A DNA stretch of 64,000 bases from contig JAEEYO010000015.1 of NCBI GenBank assembly GCA_016288205.1, forward strand, positions 62,001-126,000, written 5' to 3'. Below the pieces are notes generated by a model, which was not told the origin of the DNA, made no database searches, and saw only the letters and a list, made by a program, of their open reading frames with translations. A program made the position numbers and the translations under genes. Every line of letters begins with the position of its first letter. The stretch's first letter is position 1. The stretch is from Treponema sp. (lineage in GTDB: Bacteria; Spirochaetota; Spirochaetia; Treponematales; Treponemataceae). Below, in pieces: positions 42,690 through 50,699 of this stretch.

Positions 42690-42800
42690 TAGTAATATAA
42701 TTTTAAAGAAGGGAAAAAAACTGGACAGCTGGCACTGTTCACGGTCTTATACCTCGGGGAAAATGTGGTAGAACGCATATTATTATGGAGGGAAATATAC

Positions 42801-45800
42801 ATGAAAAAGAAACTTAAGAAGATTTTACTTGCACTGATTTTTGTCGCGCTTTTACCGACAGGAAATATCTTTGCTCAATCAAGAGCAATTTCTGCAAACG
42901 GGGTCACGGTTCCAAGCTGGATGCAAAACTGTATTATTATCAACTCAGAATACCCGTTCGGCAGGCGTACAATCGGGCAAGTACTTTCAATACCTCAGAA
43001 AAAAACAAAACTTAAACAGGTAACTGTAAACAACACGAAAGTTTCTCTGGATTACGTTCTCGCAGAAGACGACGGAAGCATAATATGGAGTCTGTATTTG
43101 GAATTTACCTGCGTAAAATCCGGGAATGGAGGCAACTGCTATATCTCCATGCTTAAATTTGAAGAACCTCTTTCATTTAAAAAGGAAACAGTAACATGCT
43201 CCAGTCCATACGACTTTAACTATGGATATTGTCTTGGAATTCTATACGAGTGTTCACAAAAGATGTTCATAGATGAGGTTAGGTTTAATGAACAAAAGGC
43301 CTATGAGGAAAAAATCAAAAAGATAGAAGAAAATTTGCTAAATGATTTCGTAAGCCGGACTTCATCAAAATACATCGACGACGAGCTTCTTGATCTTGGT
43401 GAAATAAATGCCAATGCCTTTGGAAATGACTATTTGTTCCGTCTGTATGCGGTGGCAAACCGAGCGAGCGTAAAAAAGGGATTAACACCATGCTATTATC
43501 AGAAAATCGGGGATGCCGCACCCGTATACGACACAAGCAAATGGAAATTCTTGGACAGAATTTATCAGAAGAATGAAATATACCTGGACGAATCAGCCAC
43601 AGGATTCATTATCCGCGGTGACTGGAAAGATAACTTAACTCTCGCAAGAAAAGACTTCGAACATAAAGCTCAGATAGAAGCAAAGCGGAAAGTACAGAGA
43701 GACAAAGAAGATGAGGAGTTCATCGCTAAAGTCCTTGCCATGAAACCAAGCTCGTGGTATACCAATGGGAAAATTCAATATTCCTCTGAAGAACATTTTT
43801 CTTTCGATTTCAGCTGGGGAGGTTACAGCAGTTACACAGAAAGCGATTATATAACAGACAATGCACGTATATATGCAATACTGAACAAGGCAAGTGAAAA
43901 AGCCGGGTTCTCACCATGTTATTACCAAATGCAAGGCGGGAAAAAAATATTTGATTCAAAAAAATGGCAGCTCGGAAATTGGCGGATCGAAAAATGGGAT
44001 CACGAAGTTACACTTGTTACATGGGAAAAAACTGACACCATAAAACAGGACAGCACATGCAACGGATTTTTTCACAATTATTGGGGTATATATCGCAACG
44101 TTCCCAAAGCCGTCGAACAAAAGATAGCAGAGGAAAAAGCCCTGAAAGCAAAGGAGGATGTGGAGTTCATCGCTAAGGTTCTTGCTATGGAACCAGACAA
44201 ATGGTCTGACTCAGGGGAAATACACTATGGTCAGGGATTCTGGTTTAATTCCAAAAGCTATTTCACCAGTCAAGAGCCAGAAATCGAAGAACTCGACTCC
44301 ATCCGCCCTGGCATCATGTCAGAAATAGAAGACGCAGCCCGCATGTATTCCATATTGAACAAGGCGAGTGTAAAACTCGGCTTCTCCCCATGCTATTATC
44401 AAATTCAAGACGGAAACAAAGTCTATGACAGTGACAAATGGGACTTAGGAGAATGGAAGGCAGGAGGAAGCGGAAGGAGTGGCCGGAACTACTACAGCCG
44501 GGAAAAAGTCGATACCATAAAATGTGACGAATCCGCAAACGGATTCCGCCGCGATAAATCATACGACGGCTACCCAGGAACAGTATACCGAATTGATTCC
44601 AAGGCAGTGGAAGAGCACAAAGCAAAGTTGAAAGCTGAGGAATTGGCAAAAAAGGCAAGGTATAAGGCACAAAGAGAGAAAAATGATGCAGAGGACATCG
44701 TAAAAATCCTCGCAATGGCTCCTAAATACTGGAGCAACTCCGGAAAAATAGAATATGGGCAGTATCGCTTCTATTTCTCCAGCAACGAGTACAGCATAAG
44801 TGGCATAAACCCAAGATATGATGAAGCTCGCATATCCGCAATAATGAACAAGGCAAGTGAAAAAGCCGGGTTCTCACCGTGCTATTATCAGGAGCTGGAT
44901 GGAGCAAAGGTCTTTGACAGCGACAAGTGGCAGCTTGGAGAATGGGAGTATTATTACGGATGGACGAAACAGAAAACAATAAAAAAAGACAATGACTCAA
45001 ACGGCTTCTATTACAACTCCCAGGGAGATATATACGGAGATATATACCGCTACGATCCAGAGTACGTCGCACAAAAAAAAGCCGAAGAAGAGGCTCAAAA
45101 AGCAAAAGAATTGGCGGAAAAAGAAGCTCAAAAGGCGAGGGAGCAAGCCGCAAAAGCAGAACGTGAAGCAAAGTTAAAGGCAATTCGCGACAAAGAGGAT
45201 GAAGAGATCATCGCAAAAATCCTCAAGATGGAAATAAGGAATTACAGTACGCCTGACTCTCTGTATTATGACTCTGGAAGCGTCATGTATAACGACTACT
45301 ACGGTCAGGGGCTTTGGTTTAACGCAGCTGGATACGGCAGTGACGGACGCAAGCTAAAGGATGCAACCCGCCTACATGCCATAATGAACAAGGCAAGTGA
45401 AAAAGCCGGTTTCTCACCGTGTTATTATCAGGAACAGGATGGAGCAAAGATCTTTGACAGCGACAAATGGCAGCTCGGAGAATGGAAAGGAGCCTCCATC
45501 GGATGGGAAAAAGGCAGAACCATAAAACAGCAAAAAGACAAGAACGGCTTCTATTGCACTGAAACCAGTATATACCGCAATGATCCAAAGGTAGTTGCTG
45601 AATTAGAAGAAAAGAAACGTGCCGAGGAGGAAGCAAAGAAAGCTGAGGAATTGGCAAAAAAGGCAAGATACAAAGCTCAAAGAGACAAGGAAGACGAGGA
45701 GTTCATTGCCAAGGTTCTTTCAATGAAGATGGACAATTGGTATGAATCCGGTGAGTTACAATACGAAAAATACAAATTCCAGTTCAATTTAAGCGGATAT

Positions 45801-47885
45801 GAAAATCCCGGATGTAATGAGATAAAAGACGAACCCCGCATCTATTCCATACTGAACAAGGCAAGTACAAAATCTGGATTCGCACCGTGCTATTATCAGG
45901 AACAGGACGGAGAAAAAGTTTTTGACAGCGAAAAATGGCAGCTTGGTAAATGGCAATACAACGGCGGATGGGAGCGCAGCAGAAGCATAAAGCGGGATAA
46001 AAGCAAGAACGGATTCTATTTCGACACCAGCCATTACGGTTCAGTCGGATGGGGAAATATATGCCGAAATGATCCAGAGGTAGTCGCTGAGTTACTGGAG
46101 AAGAAACATGCCGAAGAAGAGGCTTTAAATGCAAAATTAAAAGCTCAGAGAGATGAGGAAGACATTGAACTCATCGAAGAGATTCTTTCAAGGGAACCAA
46201 ACAATTGGTATGACTCGGGGGAAATACGCTATGGTTGGGAATTTCGGTTTAATTCCAAAGGCTATACCAAAAGCAAAGGGGCAAAAATAGAAGACGTAGC
46301 CCGCATGTATTCCATATTGAACAAGGCGAGTGTAAAACTTGGACTCTCCCCTTGCTATTATCAGATTCAAAATGGAAATAAAATCTATGACAGTGACAAA
46401 TGGGACTTAGGAGAATGGAAGGCAGGAGGAAGCGGAAGGAGTGACTGGGATTACTACAGCTGGGAAAAAGTTAACACCATAAAATGTGATGAATCCGCAA
46501 ACGGCTTCCGCCGCGAAAAATCATACGACGGCTACCATAATGGATCGGTATACAGAATTGATTTCAAGGCAGTGGAAGAACACAAAGCAAAGCTGAAAGC
46601 CGAGGAGGAAGCAAAGAAAGCTGAGGAATTGGCAAAAAAGGCAAAATATAAGGCAGATAGAGAAAAAAAGGATGCCGAGGATGTCATAAAAATTGCTGAA
46701 ATGAAATTTGAATATTGGAGTAACTCCGGAGAAATAAAGTATGGACGCTATATGTTCAATTTCTCCAGCAGCGATTACTACAGCATAAGTAGCATAAATC
46801 CAAGATATGATGATGCACGAATATTTGCAATAATGAACAAGGCAAGCGAAGAGGCTGGTTTCAGACCTTGCTATTACCAGGAGCAGGATGGAGAAAAGGT
46901 CTTTGACAGCAACAAGTGGCAGCTTGGAGAATGGGAGTATTATTATGGATGGACGAAACAGAAAACAATAAAAAAAGACAATGACTCAAATGGATTTTAT
47001 TACAAATCTCAAGGAGCTATATACGGGGATATATATCGCAATGATCCAGAGGCAGTTGCTAAGTTAGAAGAAAAGAAACGTGCCGAGGAGGAGGCCAAGA
47101 AAGCCAAAGAACTGGCAGAGAAAGCAGAGAGAGAAGCGATGCTTAGAGCAAGGAGAGACGCAGAAGATGAGAAATACATCGCAAGCATCCTTGCAATGGA
47201 GCCTGAGCAATATTATAAATCTGGTGAAGTCCAATACGGAACATTTGACAATCGCTTCGACGCAACAAACTACAGCTGCAGACTAAGTTCTGTAACAGCA
47301 GATACTGTACGCACCTATGCCATACTGAATAAGGCAAGCGAGAAAGCTGGATTCAAACCATGCTATTATCAGGTACAGGATGAAGAAAAAATCTTTGACA
47401 GTGAAAAATGGCAGCTCGGAGAATGGAATTACGATAGATGGGAAAAGACAAAAACCATAAAGCAAGAAAATACCTCCAACGGATTCTATTATTACAATTC
47501 TTACGTTCTCCGCAACGATTTTGAACTCGTCATGCAAAAAGTCCGACAAAATGAGGAGATTCAAATTGCAATTGAGCTTTGTTCCATGGTTTCCAAGTAC
47601 CGTCACGGCAGATTCGAATATGAAAGAATTCCAGAAAATTTCCCGTTGGATTCTGAGATATGCGTTTTTGCAATCATGAACCGGGCAAGTACACTTGCAG
47701 AACTTTCTCCTTGCTATTATCAGATGCAAAATGGAACACAAGTCTTTGACACGGACAAGTGGATCTTTGAATATGACAAGGACACAGGCACATATACAAA
47801 CGGCGACAGCATACAAGAGACAAAGAAGGGAAATGGCTTTAGGTTCGATAAAAAGAAACGCATGATAATAAGAAACAAAAAGTAA
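42801..47885 (+). CDS. Giant exported protein of ten Cys-Tyr-Tyr-Gln repeats
   Basis: 1694 residues from ATG 42801 (GGAGG eight bases upstream; an earlier in-frame GTG at 42765 is less likely). Signal peptide MKKKLKKILLALIFVALLPT, then a unique ~180-residue domain. Ten repeats of ~117-180 residues follow; each has an (A/S)I(L/M)NKASEKAGFSPCYYQ-type motif, then FDSDKWQLGEW, a W-rich stretch, TIKxD..NGFY and I/VYR. Repeats 2-9 are joined by Lys/Glu/Ala-rich coiled-coil linkers (AEEEAKKAEELAKKARYKAQ). Each unit has a conserved single Cys. No known domain is recognised. Likely secreted or surface-exposed. Confidence 0.85.
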   Translation: MKKKLKKILLALIFVALLPTGNIFAQSRAISANGVTVPSWMQNCIIINSEYPFGRRTIGQVLSIPQKKTKLKQVTVNNTKVSLDYVLAEDDGSIIWSLYLEFTCVKSGNGGNCYISMLKFEEPLSFKKETVTCSSPYDFNYGYCLGILYECSQKMFIDEVRFNEQKAYEEKIKKIEENLLNDFVSRTSSKYIDDELLDLGEINANAFGNDYLFRLYAVANRASVKKGLTPCYYQKIGDAAPVYDTSKWKFLDRIYQKNEIYLDESATGFIIRGDWKDNLTLARKDFEHKAQIEAKRKVQRDKEDEEFIAKVLAMKPSSWYTNGKIQYSSEEHFSFDFSWGGYSSYTESDYITDNARIYAILNKASEKAGFSPCYYQMQGGKKIFDSKKWQLGNWRIEKWDHEVTLVTWEKTDTIKQDSTCNGFFHNYWGIYRNVPKAVEQKIAEEKALKAKEDVEFIAKVLAMEPDKWSDSGEIHYGQGFWFNSKSYFTSQEPEIEELDSIRPGIMSEIEDAARMYSILNKASVKLGFSPCYYQIQDGNKVYDSDKWDLGEWKAGGSGRSGRNYYSREKVDTIKCDESANGFRRDKSYDGYPGTVYRIDSKAVEEHKAKLKAEELAKKARYKAQREKNDAEDIVKILAMAPKYWSNSGKIEYGQYRFYFSSNEYSISGINPRYDEARISAIMNKASEKAGFSPCYYQELDGAKVFDSDKWQLGEWEYYYGWTKQKTIKKDNDSNGFYYNSQGDIYGDIYRYDPEYVAQKKAEEEAQKAKELAEKEAQKAREQAAKAEREAKLKAIRDKEDEEIIAKILKMEIRNYSTPDSLYYDSGSVMYNDYYGQGLWFNAAGYGSDGRKLKDATRLHAIMNKASEKAGFSPCYYQEQDGAKIFDSDKWQLGEWKGASIGWEKGRTIKQQKDKNGFYCTETSIYRNDPKVVAELEEKKRAEEEAKKAEELAKKARYKAQRDKEDEEFIAKVLSMKMDNWYESGELQYEKYKFQFNLSGYENPGCNEIKDEPRIYSILNKASTKSGFAPCYYQEQDGEKVFDSEKWQLGKWQYNGGWERSRSIKRDKSKNGFYFDTSHYGSVGWGNICRNDPEVVAELLEKKHAEEEALNAKLKAQRDEEDIELIEEILSREPNNWYDSGEIRYGWEFRFNSKGYTKSKGAKIEDVARMYSILNKASVKLGLSPCYYQIQNGNKIYDSDKWDLGEWKAGGSGRSDWDYYSWEKVNTIKCDESANGFRREKSYDGYHNGSVYRIDFKAVEEHKAKLKAEEEAKKAEELAKKAKYKADREKKDAEDVIKIAEMKFEYWSNSGEIKYGRYMFNFSSSDYYSISSINPRYDDARIFAIMNKASEEAGFRPCYYQEQDGEKVFDSNKWQLGEWEYYYGWTKQKTIKKDNDSNGFYYKSQGAIYGDIYRNDPEAVAKLEEKKRAEEEAKKAKELAEKAEREAMLRARRDAEDEKYIASILAMEPEQYYKSGEVQYGTFDNRFDATNYSCRLSSVTADTVRTYAILNKASEKAGFKPCYYQVQDEEKIFDSEKWQLGEWNYDRWEKTKTIKQENTSNGFYYYNSYVLRNDFELVMQKVRQNEEIQIAIELCSMVSKYRHGRFEYERIPENFPLDSEICVFAIMNRASTLAELSPCYYQMQNGTQVFDTDKWIFEYDKDTGTYTNGDSIQETKKGNGFRFDKKKRMIIRNKK
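43330..47860 (+). repeat. Ten tandem ~0.35-0.54 kb coding repeats with higher-order duplication
   Basis: The CYYQ codons occur near 43491, 43917, 44391, 44879, 45419, 45889, 46353, 46868, 47360 and 47712. Units 3 and 7 share a special segment (AGGSGRS then CDESANGFRR), and units 4 and 8 share YYYGWTKQKTIKKDNDSNGF, so a four-unit block seems to have been duplicated. Confidence 0.85.
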
Positions 47886-47937
47886 AACCCAAGGTGGAAA
47901 CATCGGAGAGAGAATTATTTTATGGAGGAAACTGAGT

Positions 47938-48063
47938 ATGACAGTCCAAACATTGACAAAAAAACAAGAAGAGATGCATGAGAAAATCAGGGAAAATGCA
48001 GAAAAACTTGGCTTGACAAAACAAAAGCCTGTTTTGGAACCTTTTTATGATGGTGTAGCTTAG
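47938..48063 (+). CDS. 41-residue helical mini-ORF at the start of a cassette-like block
   Basis: ATG 47938 follows TATGGAGGAAACTGAGT, giving MTVQTLTKKQEEMHEKIREN and 21 further residues to the TAG at 48061. It looks like the charged N-terminus of a longer protein, so it may be a truncated gene. The leader sequence recurs almost exactly at 49313, before the next cassette-like ORF. Confidence 0.45.
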   Translation: MTVQTLTKKQEEMHEKIRENAEKLGLTKQKPVLEPFYDGVA

Positions 48064-48074
48064 GAGGATTTTTT

Positions 48075-48188
48075 ATGGCAAATTTTTAAGGGACAGTCAA
48101 AAAAAAAGACGTGAGCCTGGAAACTCTTTCAAAGCAAATTCAAGAACAACAGACTCAAATAGAGAATTTAGAAAATAAACTATCATGA
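48075..48188 (+). pseudogene. Short coiled-coil ORF interrupted by a stop at codon 5
   Basis: A ribosome site (TAGGAGG) and ATG 48075 give MANF then TAA (48087), after which the same frame continues as GTVKKKDVSLETLSKQIQEQ, QTQIENLENKLS to TGA 48186. One base change in the TAA would restore a 37-residue coiled-coil protein. A GTG at 48111 could start the last 25 residues. Confidence 0.35.
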
Positions 48189-48195
48189 TTTGATA
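48179..48195. repeat. Short hairpin CTATCA/TGATAG upstream of the PD-(D/E)XK gene
   Basis: CTATCA-N5-TGATAG followed by CTTGAATCTTTATTAT. A similar hairpin, CTATCAT-CAA-ATGATAG, lies at 49985-50001 before the FtsZ-like gene. Confidence 0.45.
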
Positions 48196-48231
48196 GCTTG
48201 AATCTTTATTATTATAGATGGAGGATAAAAA

Positions 48232-49252: not shown

Positions 49253-49315
49253 GTCTAACAAAGGTTCGTAGCCGACAGGCAGTCAAGCTGCCTGCGGTTT
49301 AAAATATTGTTATAT
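49253..49315 (+). other. attC-like integron recombination site
   Basis: Starts with GTCTAAC (49253-49259), fitting RYYYAAC, and ends with GTTATAT (49309-49315), one mismatch from GTTRRRY. TAACAA and TTGTTA outer arms pair. The centre is CCG-A-CAGGCAG, a TCAAG loop, and CTGCCTGCGG: an imperfect palindrome with one unpaired A, as in attC sites. The segment TTCGTAGCCGAC resembles that of common attC elements. 63 bp total. It lies between two unrelated ORFs, as cassette sites do. Confidence 0.7.
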
Positions 49316-49329
49316 GGAGGAAACTGAAA

Positions 49330-49455
49330 ATGACAATTATTGATGAAAATGGAATGTCCCAGAAAATGGAGGCATTTATATGGCATCAACAACAAGTGAG
49401 AACTACGTTACGGAAACTATTTTGGTTCCCCTTTATAACCGCTCTGCAGGGCTAA
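49330..49455 (+). CDS. Possible 41-residue ORF overlapping the next gene
   Basis: TATGGAGGAAACTGAAA precedes ATG 49330, which opens MTIIDENGMSQKMEAFIWHQ and runs to TAA 49453. It overlaps the 192-residue ORF in another frame, so at most one is the main product. The 5' leader matches that at 47921. I rate real expression as doubtful; it may only be the entry stretch of a cassette. Confidence 0.25.
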   Translation: MTIIDENGMSQKMEAFIWHQQQVRTTLRKLFWFPFITALQG

Positions 49456-49961: not shown

Positions 49962-50001
49962 GTCTAGCAAAAACATGCGACTCTCTATCATCAAATGATA
50001 G
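49962..50001 (+). other. Degenerate second recombination-site-like palindrome
   Basis: GTCTAGC (49962-49968), GCGACT, and the hairpin CTATCAT-CAA-ATGATAG (49985-50001) echo the attC layout, but the closing GTTRRRY is missing. It may be a decayed attC or only a hairpin. Confidence 0.3.
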
Positions 50002-50051
50002 TCCATAACCTTTATAATATCACACATAAAACAACACCAACGGAGGAATGT

Positions 50052-50699
50052 ATGGCAGATTCAATCATAAAACTTGTAGGTATTGGTGGGTGCGGAATCA
50101 GCATCATAAACAGCATTGTTGACAAGAACATAAAGGGTGTTGAATGCATTGCGATAGACGCGAATAAACGGGCACTGGATATCTCGAATGCACAGAAAAA
50201 ACTTCTGATAGGGGAAAAATCTGTAGACGGTCTTGGTTCTGGAGGAGCACCGGAAGTTGGGGAGAGTGCCGCTCGGGAAGACGTCGAAGCTATAAAGGAA
50301 TTATTCCCTGAGAAACAGGACTGTATCGCCGTCATTGTTGCAGGCATGGGAGGGGGTACGGGAACTGGTGCCGCGCCAATAGTAGCAGAAATAGCCAGAA
50401 AAAATGGTGCGTCTACCATCGCAATAGTCTGCAAGCCGTTTGATTTTGAGGGTAAAGTGAAAATGCAGTGTGCGGAGGACGGACTTAAAAAACTGCGTGA
50501 AAGCGTAGAAAACGTCATAACACTTAAGAATCAAGGAATTGTGACAGCCGCAGATGATTTACAACTTTCCGAAATATCTTACAAGGATGCATTTAAAATC
50601 ATTAATAATGCCGCGAACAAATTTGTTCAAATGCTTTCTGAGCTAGTTTATGACGATAATATTAAGGGGAATGTAAAATTCATGAAGTCAATATTGTGA
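50052..50699 (+). CDS. Short FtsZ-like GTPase without the C-terminal domain
   Basis: 215 residues from ATG 50052 (GGAGG upstream; the ORF extends upstream in frame to 49995 but those codons cover the hairpin). The FtsZ GTPase domain is clear: IIKLVGIGGCGISIINSIVD, GLGSGGAPEVGESAARED, the tubulin signature AGMGGGTGTGAAPIVAEIAR, and VCKPFDFEGKVKM. It ends at helix H7 with NNAANKFVQMLSELVYDD and GNVKFMKSIL, where the T7 loop of FtsZ (NxDFxD) should be; the catalytic Asp is a Lys, and the C-terminal polymer-contact domain is absent. It is not the cell-division FtsZ (380-420 residues). Function unknown; it may bind GTP without normal polymerisation. Confidence 0.88.
   Translation: MADSIIKLVGIGGCGISIINSIVDKNIKGVECIAIDANKRALDISNAQKKLLIGEKSVDGLGSGGAPEVGESAAREDVEAIKELFPEKQDCIAVIVAGMGGGTGTGAAPIVAEIARKNGASTIAIVCKPFDFEGKVKMQCAEDGLKKLRESVENVITLKNQGIVTAADDLQLSEISYKDAFKIINNAANKFVQMLSELVYDDNIKGNVKFMKSIL

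Follow-up and report, generated by a model that had tools for sequence, protein, structure and literature searches.

A truncated FtsZ gene in an accessory region

What is a gene for half of FtsZ doing in a Treponema genome that also has a complete ftsZ? The single ordinary FtsZ of the source genome (3.5 Mb, 99% complete) is a 514-aa protein whose gene lies on contig C65, downstream of an ftsA-like gene. In the window, by which we mean the whole stretch of 64,000 nucleotides analysed here, a 215-residue open reading frame encodes only the N-terminal nucleotide-binding domain of FtsZ, helix H7, and a 15-residue tail. This gene, here called FtsZ-mini copy A, and other features are listed in Table 1. 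An earlier note made from the DNA letters had described it as a minimal FtsZ-like GTPase without the C-terminal domain. The reading frame is as described, and the protein does stop after H7.

Copy A matches the Pfam Tubulin/FtsZ family (PF00091) over residues 6-165 with an E-value of 5.5e-39 (135 bits; cut-off 33) and has the GGGTGTG motif, which makes it a member of the FtsZ-tubulin superfamily. Against TIGR00065 (ftsZ), model positions 18-209 of 353 are aligned with 190 bits, below the equivalog cut-off of 295. The closest solved sequences are FtsZ (T. maritima 1w5f, E-value 2.9e-40), and among FtsZs of the genus the full-coverage matches are 37-48% identical to it. The AF2 model (pLDDT 89.6, pTM 0.88) was built from 25 aligned sequences, 21 of which are FtsZ and may bias it toward the FtsZ fold; it comprises the entire N-terminal domain, H7 as a helix from 177 to 200, and a short helix at the C-terminus. 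When only four sequences were used, H7 was modelled poorly. By Foldseek, the model lies on the N-terminal half of FtsZ chains with an rmsd of about 1.6 A (TMq 0.84).

The FtsZ_C domain (PF12327) is absent from copy A and is found once per genome, in ordinary ftsZ only. Because the sole PF12327 match of the source genome is the ftsZ gene on C65, a hidden C-terminal half located 3' of copy A is excluded. There is no frameshift whose repair would restore a full FtsZ. Copy A is not linked to ftsA; its neighbours are accessory genes.

Table 1. Positions of the FtsZ-mini genes, their control elements, and associated features. Locations without a prefix are positions in the window; L numbers denote loci, G000 the source genome, and C60 one of its contigs.
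Feature	Location	Strand	Remarks
Repeat protein, 1706 aa, with signal peptide	42765-47885		About ten diverged repeats (NKASEKAGFSPCYYQ...); no Pfam family
30-nt stretch, first	47914-47943		Ends in Shine-Dalgarno and ATGACA
Operator palindrome, second	48180..48196	+	CTATCA-TGATT-TGATAG; before PDDEXK_4 gene
PDDEXK_4 nuclease-like gene, 335 aa	48232..49239	+	PF14281 6.9e-9; PADLOC PDC-S26 3.4e-16; operator of the same type as copy A
30-nt stretch, second	49306-49335		Ends in Shine-Dalgarno and ATGACA
Orphan protein, 192 aa	49380..49958	+	Between nuclease and FtsZ-mini
Operator palindrome	49985..50001	+	CTATCA-TCAAA-TGATAG; 6-bp arms, 5-bp spacer; before copy A
-10 box TATAAT	50013..50018	+	11 bases 3' of operator; same spacing in other island genes
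Shine-Dalgarno GGAGG	50042..50046	+	Kept in all four copies
FtsZ-mini copy A, 215 aa	50052..50699	+	FtsZ N-terminal domain, H7, and tail
HTH_3 protein, 253 aa	50759..51520	+	Homologue in another WYL-linked locus, L110:7115-7978, E-value 2e-90
FtsZ-mini copy B, 215 aa	L034:9399-10046 = G000:C60:61398-62045		After two GmrSD-like genes, before BspA-type LRR gene
Putative WYL-domain regulator gene, preceded by operator motif	L043:15518; L034:13737-14729		Island edge
DnaA AAA+-only gene	L043:9520-10182		
DnaB C-terminal-only gene	L043:12805-13680		Broken Walker A
SMC head-only gene	L043:14373-14996		
FlhA N-half genes, examples	L071:2423-3205; L087:12224-13006; L070:14559-15356; L082:2593-3366; L107:12363-13160		
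FlhA C-half genes and neighbours	L130:1-3416; L131:17333-19685; L125:548-5045		Adjoin MoxR-like AAA gene and DUF2201 metallopeptidase/vWA gene
DnaB_C and DnaA AAA+ fusion, 385 aa	L124:9825-10982		Genome G063
DnaE (Pol III alpha) parts	L107:13277-14239; L107:14181-15446		PHP and polymerase/finger parts; overlapping ORFs in a WYL island
carB 3'-end copies	L100:466-1392; L100:7301-8947; L100:14645-17959; L104:82-1656; L104:7601-9226		Flank successive island units

Copies, relatives, and selection

A second FtsZ-mini (copy B), 69% identical to copy A, exists on contig C60 of the source genome, and one each is found in Treponema sp. Tb.RUG.153 (G125) and in uncultured Treponema SRR873595_bin.11 (G192). 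The family thus has four members in three genomes, all exactly 215 aa long, with the same start and stop. Same-length homologues in other genomes, whose lack would have told against a distinct short protein, are therefore present. The two copies of the source genome sit on different long contigs (206 and 139 kb), and their DNA is alike from the Shine-Dalgarno sequence to just beyond the stop codon and nowhere further. Pairwise dN/dS among the four is 0.12-0.37, and the genes are under purifying selection.

FtsZ-mini is rare: it is found in three of 200 genomes of the genus, and a search of 274 family genomes gave none beyond the genus (E-value 1e-57, a level at which distant short forms could escape). 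A scan of genome contigs returned only two Treponema MAGs with the short form, plus two distant matches to ordinary FtsZ. In the phylogenetic tree the four proteins group as a single clade (100/100) with a long stem, placed in the best tree beside Treponema FtsZ. Placement of the clade outside the FtsZ of the genus has p-AU values of 0.09-0.15, and an outside (horizontal) origin is not rejected. A plasmid or phage origin was also considered. In plasmids and phages, the tblastn matches are to complete FtsZ or stem from host contamination, with identities below 45%, the IMG/VR scan contained no FtsZ-mini, and Foldseek against viral models returned distant PhuZ/FtsZ alone.

Neighbourhood of the FtsZ-minis

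As the earlier note had stated, the genes flanking copy A are accessory: a PDDEXK_4 nuclease-like gene, a helix-turn-helix protein, and the 192-aa orphan, which has no family in Pfam, NCBIfam, PADLOC, or PHROGs. The G+C content is 31-44% across 42-51 kb of the window and about 50% outside. No Rfam family was found in 40-56 kb and no tRNA near copy A. The short protein is also found beside PDDEXK_4 in the two other genomes, G125 and G192 (two PDDEXK_4 genes), and two GmrSD-like proteins are present at the copy B locus. Across the four loci, PDDEXK_4 is thus found at three and GmrSD at the fourth, with no constant partner.

Two further observations concern this block. The 1706-aa repeat protein sits at its low-G+C edge. 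The two 30-nt stretches are 87% identical, and each opens a very short ORF ahead of the next gene; these may be leader peptides or remnants.

Residues kept and lost

The four FtsZ-minis were compared with 33 FtsZs of the genus and seven outgroups (L189 is given in E. coli numbering). The nucleotide-binding loops T1, T3, and T4 (GxGGxG, GLGxGG, GGGTGTG) are kept, as had been noticed from the sequence: the phosphate-loop residues G20, G22, G69, G71, and 105-GGGTGTG-111 are intact, as are F137, E138, and N165. Replaced in all four are N43 (by D), Q47 (by R/L/L/L), T132 (by C), P164 (by K), and L189 (by A/P), and in H7 position 192 is F and G195 is M. Q47, N43, L189, the H7 glycines, and the N/D/D of the T7 loop are invariant in the 33 genus FtsZs. 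F182 of H7 is S/T in three of the four. The guanine-contacting site (B. subtilis D187) is N or C, which alone is weaker evidence because nine genus FtsZs also have N there.

The T7 synergy loop NxDxxD, present in 33 of 33 genus FtsZs, is absent from all four FtsZ-minis. Its two catalytic Asp positions are occupied by N/S and F/L in the MAFFT alignment and by K and K when aligned by eye (GNVKFMK vs MNVDFAD). In both alignments the two Asp residues are gone, so the proposed loss of the catalytic Asp holds. The reported change of AINTD to AIDAN is real in copy A but confined to it, the other three having VDTD or MDTD.

On the GTP side, the assembly face includes Q47; in E. coli, the Q47K variant of FtsZ fails to support division and is presumed to be monomeric (PMC13423816). 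In FtsZ-mini both polymer faces are altered (Q47 and N43 on one, T7 absent on the other) while the phosphate loops are kept, and we predict a monomeric, catalytically dead pseudo-FtsZ. Of the features for GTP binding and hydrolysis, judged from the alignment, the phosphate loops remain while the base-pocket residues and the catalytic Asp are lost. The protein may still hold a phosphate ligand, and the conserved loops suggest that nucleotide may still matter for it. The earlier suggestion of a modified GTPase serving as a signalling or interference module is borne out in part: this is a modified, non-division FtsZ homologue in an interference-type (defence-like) island, but "GTPase" is not supported. 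Nor is binding of host FtsZ, also suggested there, supported as far as the usual contacts go: among the guanine-pocket and assembly residues N43, Q47, F182, and the D/N186 site differ from FtsZ, no T7 face is left, and the E. coli Q47K variant is a presumed monomer (PMC13423816).

A shared operator motif and a putative WYL-type regulator

Copy A has its own promoter, CTATCA-N5-TGATAG-N11-TATAAT, which matches at 18 of 18 defined bases and ends 34 nt before the ATG. The other three copies differ from it at 3-4 bases in the corresponding region (shuffle p 0.0005-0.002). Only two sites in the 64-kb window have the palindrome, one before copy A and one before the PDDEXK_4 gene, against 0.39 matches expected. 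Genome-wide, the pattern TCA-N5-TGATAG-N11-TAT has five matches in Treponema sp. Tb.RUG.153, all within the FtsZ-mini island, and four in the source genome, three of which flank its two FtsZ-minis. The reversed pattern, used as a control, has one match across all nine genomes.

The motif is also found upstream of a regulator gene at the island edge, which we take to encode a WYL-domain protein from a sequence resemblance recognised by eye. A 5-bp-spaced inverted repeat thus precedes both FtsZ-mini and the WYL gene, as in a BrxR-type regulon. The WYL gene, located on another contig, would presumably control copy A. Loci around relatives of the WYL gene, 740 kb in total, contain 107 motif matches, some of them ahead of WYL genes, vs four for the reversed motif; as this density comes in part from fetching WYL-linked loci, it is an association with the regulator and not a genome-wide rate.

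BrxR is a WYL repressor of defence genes that binds inverted repeats with a 5-bp spacer (PMC9122601). The Treponema arrangement resembles BrxR/CapW-type repressors (PMC9122601, PMC9122589) in having a WYL regulator in a defence island and a 5-bp-spaced inverted-repeat operator. It differs in that the operator has 6-bp arms and lies at the -35 position of many separate cargo genes, also on another contig.

Other single-domain genes in WYL islands

FtsZ is not the only protein reduced to one part in these islands, and the lengths of the other short forms vary little. Genes for the AAA+ domain of DnaA only (218-220 aa) exist at four loci, and those for the C-terminal part of DnaB only (258-317 aa) number at least nine, several with a degenerate Walker A. 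Genes for the N-part of the SMC head only encode 191-211 aa, and the P-loop is lost in L043 and L078. The transmembrane N-half of FlhA (Pfam positions 2-229 of 657, mostly 252-267 aa) is found alone at 17 loci around WYL regulators. Hda and DnaC/DnaI are also DnaA-like AAA+-only proteins, similar to the short DnaA beside the FtsZ-mini of Tb.RUG.153; unlike it they are housekeeping regulators or loaders and are not island-borne.

The 25 genomes selected for the WYL gene contain 29 FlhA pieces vs four in 21 without it, with the limit that a few pieces in G120 and G045 may belong to one gene. Short DnaA genes are in WYL-linked loci in four of four cases. There are 15 short DnaB genes in 15 WYL genomes, and among 13 genomes without WYL only G063 has any (two genes). 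Note that the WYL genomes were picked for carrying the gene, so that these counts are associations and not a random sample.

Several arrangements in these loci are recorded in Table 1. At L043 the short DnaA, DnaB, and SMC genes share one 6-kb stretch beside an FtsZ-mini. The run containing the C-half of FlhA resembles a MoxR-vWA ternary system whose variable module would be FlhA_C. The two DnaE ORFs may be one frameshifted short DnaE. The repeated carB 3' ends are suggestive of integration and tandem growth of islands at carB.

Possible roles of FtsZ-mini

The reading that we prefer, and hold tentatively, is that FtsZ-mini is a monomeric pseudo-FtsZ and one inactive-mimic module in a WYL-regulated repertoire of anti-phage-type conflict islands, in which it acts as a decoy or bait; the repertoire would also include the single-domain mimics of DnaA, DnaB, DnaE, SMC, and FlhA. 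The WYL regulation, the monomeric state, the anti-phage role, and the mode of action are all inferred. A WYL-family repressor would hold the promoter through the CTATCA-N5-TGATAG operator and release it upon infection or DNA damage. The mimic would then bind whatever recognises the N-terminal domain of FtsZ, such as a phage division inhibitor or hijacker, acting either as a decoy or, for the neighbouring nucleases, as bait. Phages commonly encode inhibitors of FtsZ, and immunity senses FtsZ-inhibitor complexes, the FtsZ-Gp0.4 complex itself being a trigger (PMC13423816). FtsZ, DnaA, DnaB, DnaE, and SMC are plausible targets of phage takeover, while FlhA is unexpected. Against the decoy reading, a decoy should track host FtsZ, yet the identity is only about 43%.

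Not every inhibitor is a suitable partner. For SulA, MciZ, Gp0.4, and Icd, the known or predicted binding site on FtsZ is the T7/C-terminal face; as FtsZ-mini lacks that face, a decoy for these classes is unlikely. Readers of the N-terminal domain are the likeliest partners, as both a T7-face decoy and the poisoning considered below are weakened.

The main rival, which we regard as rather unlikely, is a nucleotide- or phosphate-binding module re-purposed for a target that has nothing to do with FtsZ, for instance as a switch or sensor of the linked nucleases. The phosphate loops are perfectly kept while the base pocket and H7 are changed, the H7 Gly to Phe/Met changes common to all copies suggest a stable new surface, and the operator type is shared with PDDEXK_4. 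However, the four loci have no constant gene partner, and the fold still matches FtsZ at 1.6 A.

Poisoning of host FtsZ is less likely than decoy or bait as the way in which the mimic works by binding, and we consider it improbable. Like SulA, the derepressed protein would engage the T7 face of host FtsZ, here through its nucleotide face, cap the filaments, and halt division, resulting in growth arrest or abortive infection; the short DnaA, DnaB, SMC, and FlhA proteins would likewise poison their parents. FtsZ, DnaA, DnaB, SMC, and FlhA are all homo-oligomers, and the short forms keep the NTP/oligomerisation domains. On its upper face, FtsZ-mini retains F137, E138, and loops T3/T4, and a truncated FtsZ of 320 aa is a known division inhibitor (PMC9505478). 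On that same face, however, Q47 is R/L and N43 is D in all four copies, and Q47K gives a presumed monomeric, non-functional E. coli FtsZ (PMC13423816).

That FtsZ-mini is a fragment or pseudogene from an ftsZ duplication, or an assembly artefact, has very little probability: about 60% of FtsZ is missing, but start, stop, and length recur four times, twice on long contigs of one nearly complete genome, the dN/dS values are low, an own operator, -10 box, and Shine-Dalgarno sequence are present, and pseudogene and assembly error were ruled out by the constant length, codon statistics, and own promoter.

Comparison with known systems

FtsZ-mini shares with FtsZ the N-terminal GTPase-type fold, the T1/T3/T4 loops, and H7, and differs in the T7 Asp, C-terminal domain, ftsA linkage, replaced Q47, N43, and H7 glycines, and sub-cut-off score. 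FtsZl1/FtsZl2 (Makarova and Koonin 2010, PMC2875224), TubZ, and PhuZ are also members of the FtsZ-tubulin superfamily outside division, but they have C-terminal domains of their own and are far more diverged. The similarity of FtsZ-mini is 3e-40 to FtsZ vs 1.5e-7 to the PhuZ PHROG and 3e-4 to TubZ/RepX, so that it is neither TubZ nor PhuZ. FtsZl1/FtsZl2, judged from their description, are marked by inserts separating T1 from T4 and by a C-terminal region specific to the family (PMC2875224); FtsZ-mini ends after H7, has few indels relative to FtsZ, and on these features belongs to neither. It also lacks the C-terminal domain expected of archaeal CetZ. SulA, MciZ, phage Gp0.4, Kil, Hdi, and Icd are possible functional analogues if FtsZ-mini blocks division, but their folds are unrelated and several act on the T7/C-terminal face.

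A close parallel is that with the MoxR-vWA ternary conflict systems, which include inactive ParA/MinD, FtsK, and, rarely, FtsZ/tubulin modules with active copies in the same cell (PMC7159879). FtsZ-mini has likewise lost catalytic residues in a cell with an active 514-aa FtsZ. No MoxR-vWA pair is found beside the FtsZ-minis (it is present in other WYL islands of the genus), and these are standalone single-domain genes with a shared operator in WYL islands.

Implications

The use of inactive host modules by conflict systems has been proposed before: Kaur et al. 2020 suggested a decoy or dominant-negative role for inactive host-protein copies (PMC7159879). In the open-licence PMC literature, weak evidence of absence as this is, we found neither an N-terminal-only FtsZ nor a WYL-operator regulon of such short forms. 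To our knowledge, no FtsZ maintained as its N-terminal domain alone and no such regulon has been described. We also propose, with somewhat greater reserve than the decoy reading of FtsZ-mini itself, that the WYL islands are a dedicated regulon of often inactive single-domain mimics (FtsZ, DnaA, DnaB, DnaE, SMC, and FlhA halves), jointly deployed as decoys or jammers against phage takeover. Decoys are known from eukaryotic immunity.

If this is true, FtsZ-mini would provide the first known case of an FtsZ retained in half-length form for a decoy or jammer role, and bacteria would hold regulated libraries of dead essential-protein copies as immune modules. Each mimic would then point to a host protein attacked by Treponema phages, including the unexpected FlhA and SMC. 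The decoy idea would be directly testable with a 215-residue, probably soluble protein, and a natural FtsZ N-terminal domain with both polymer faces altered would be a useful tool.
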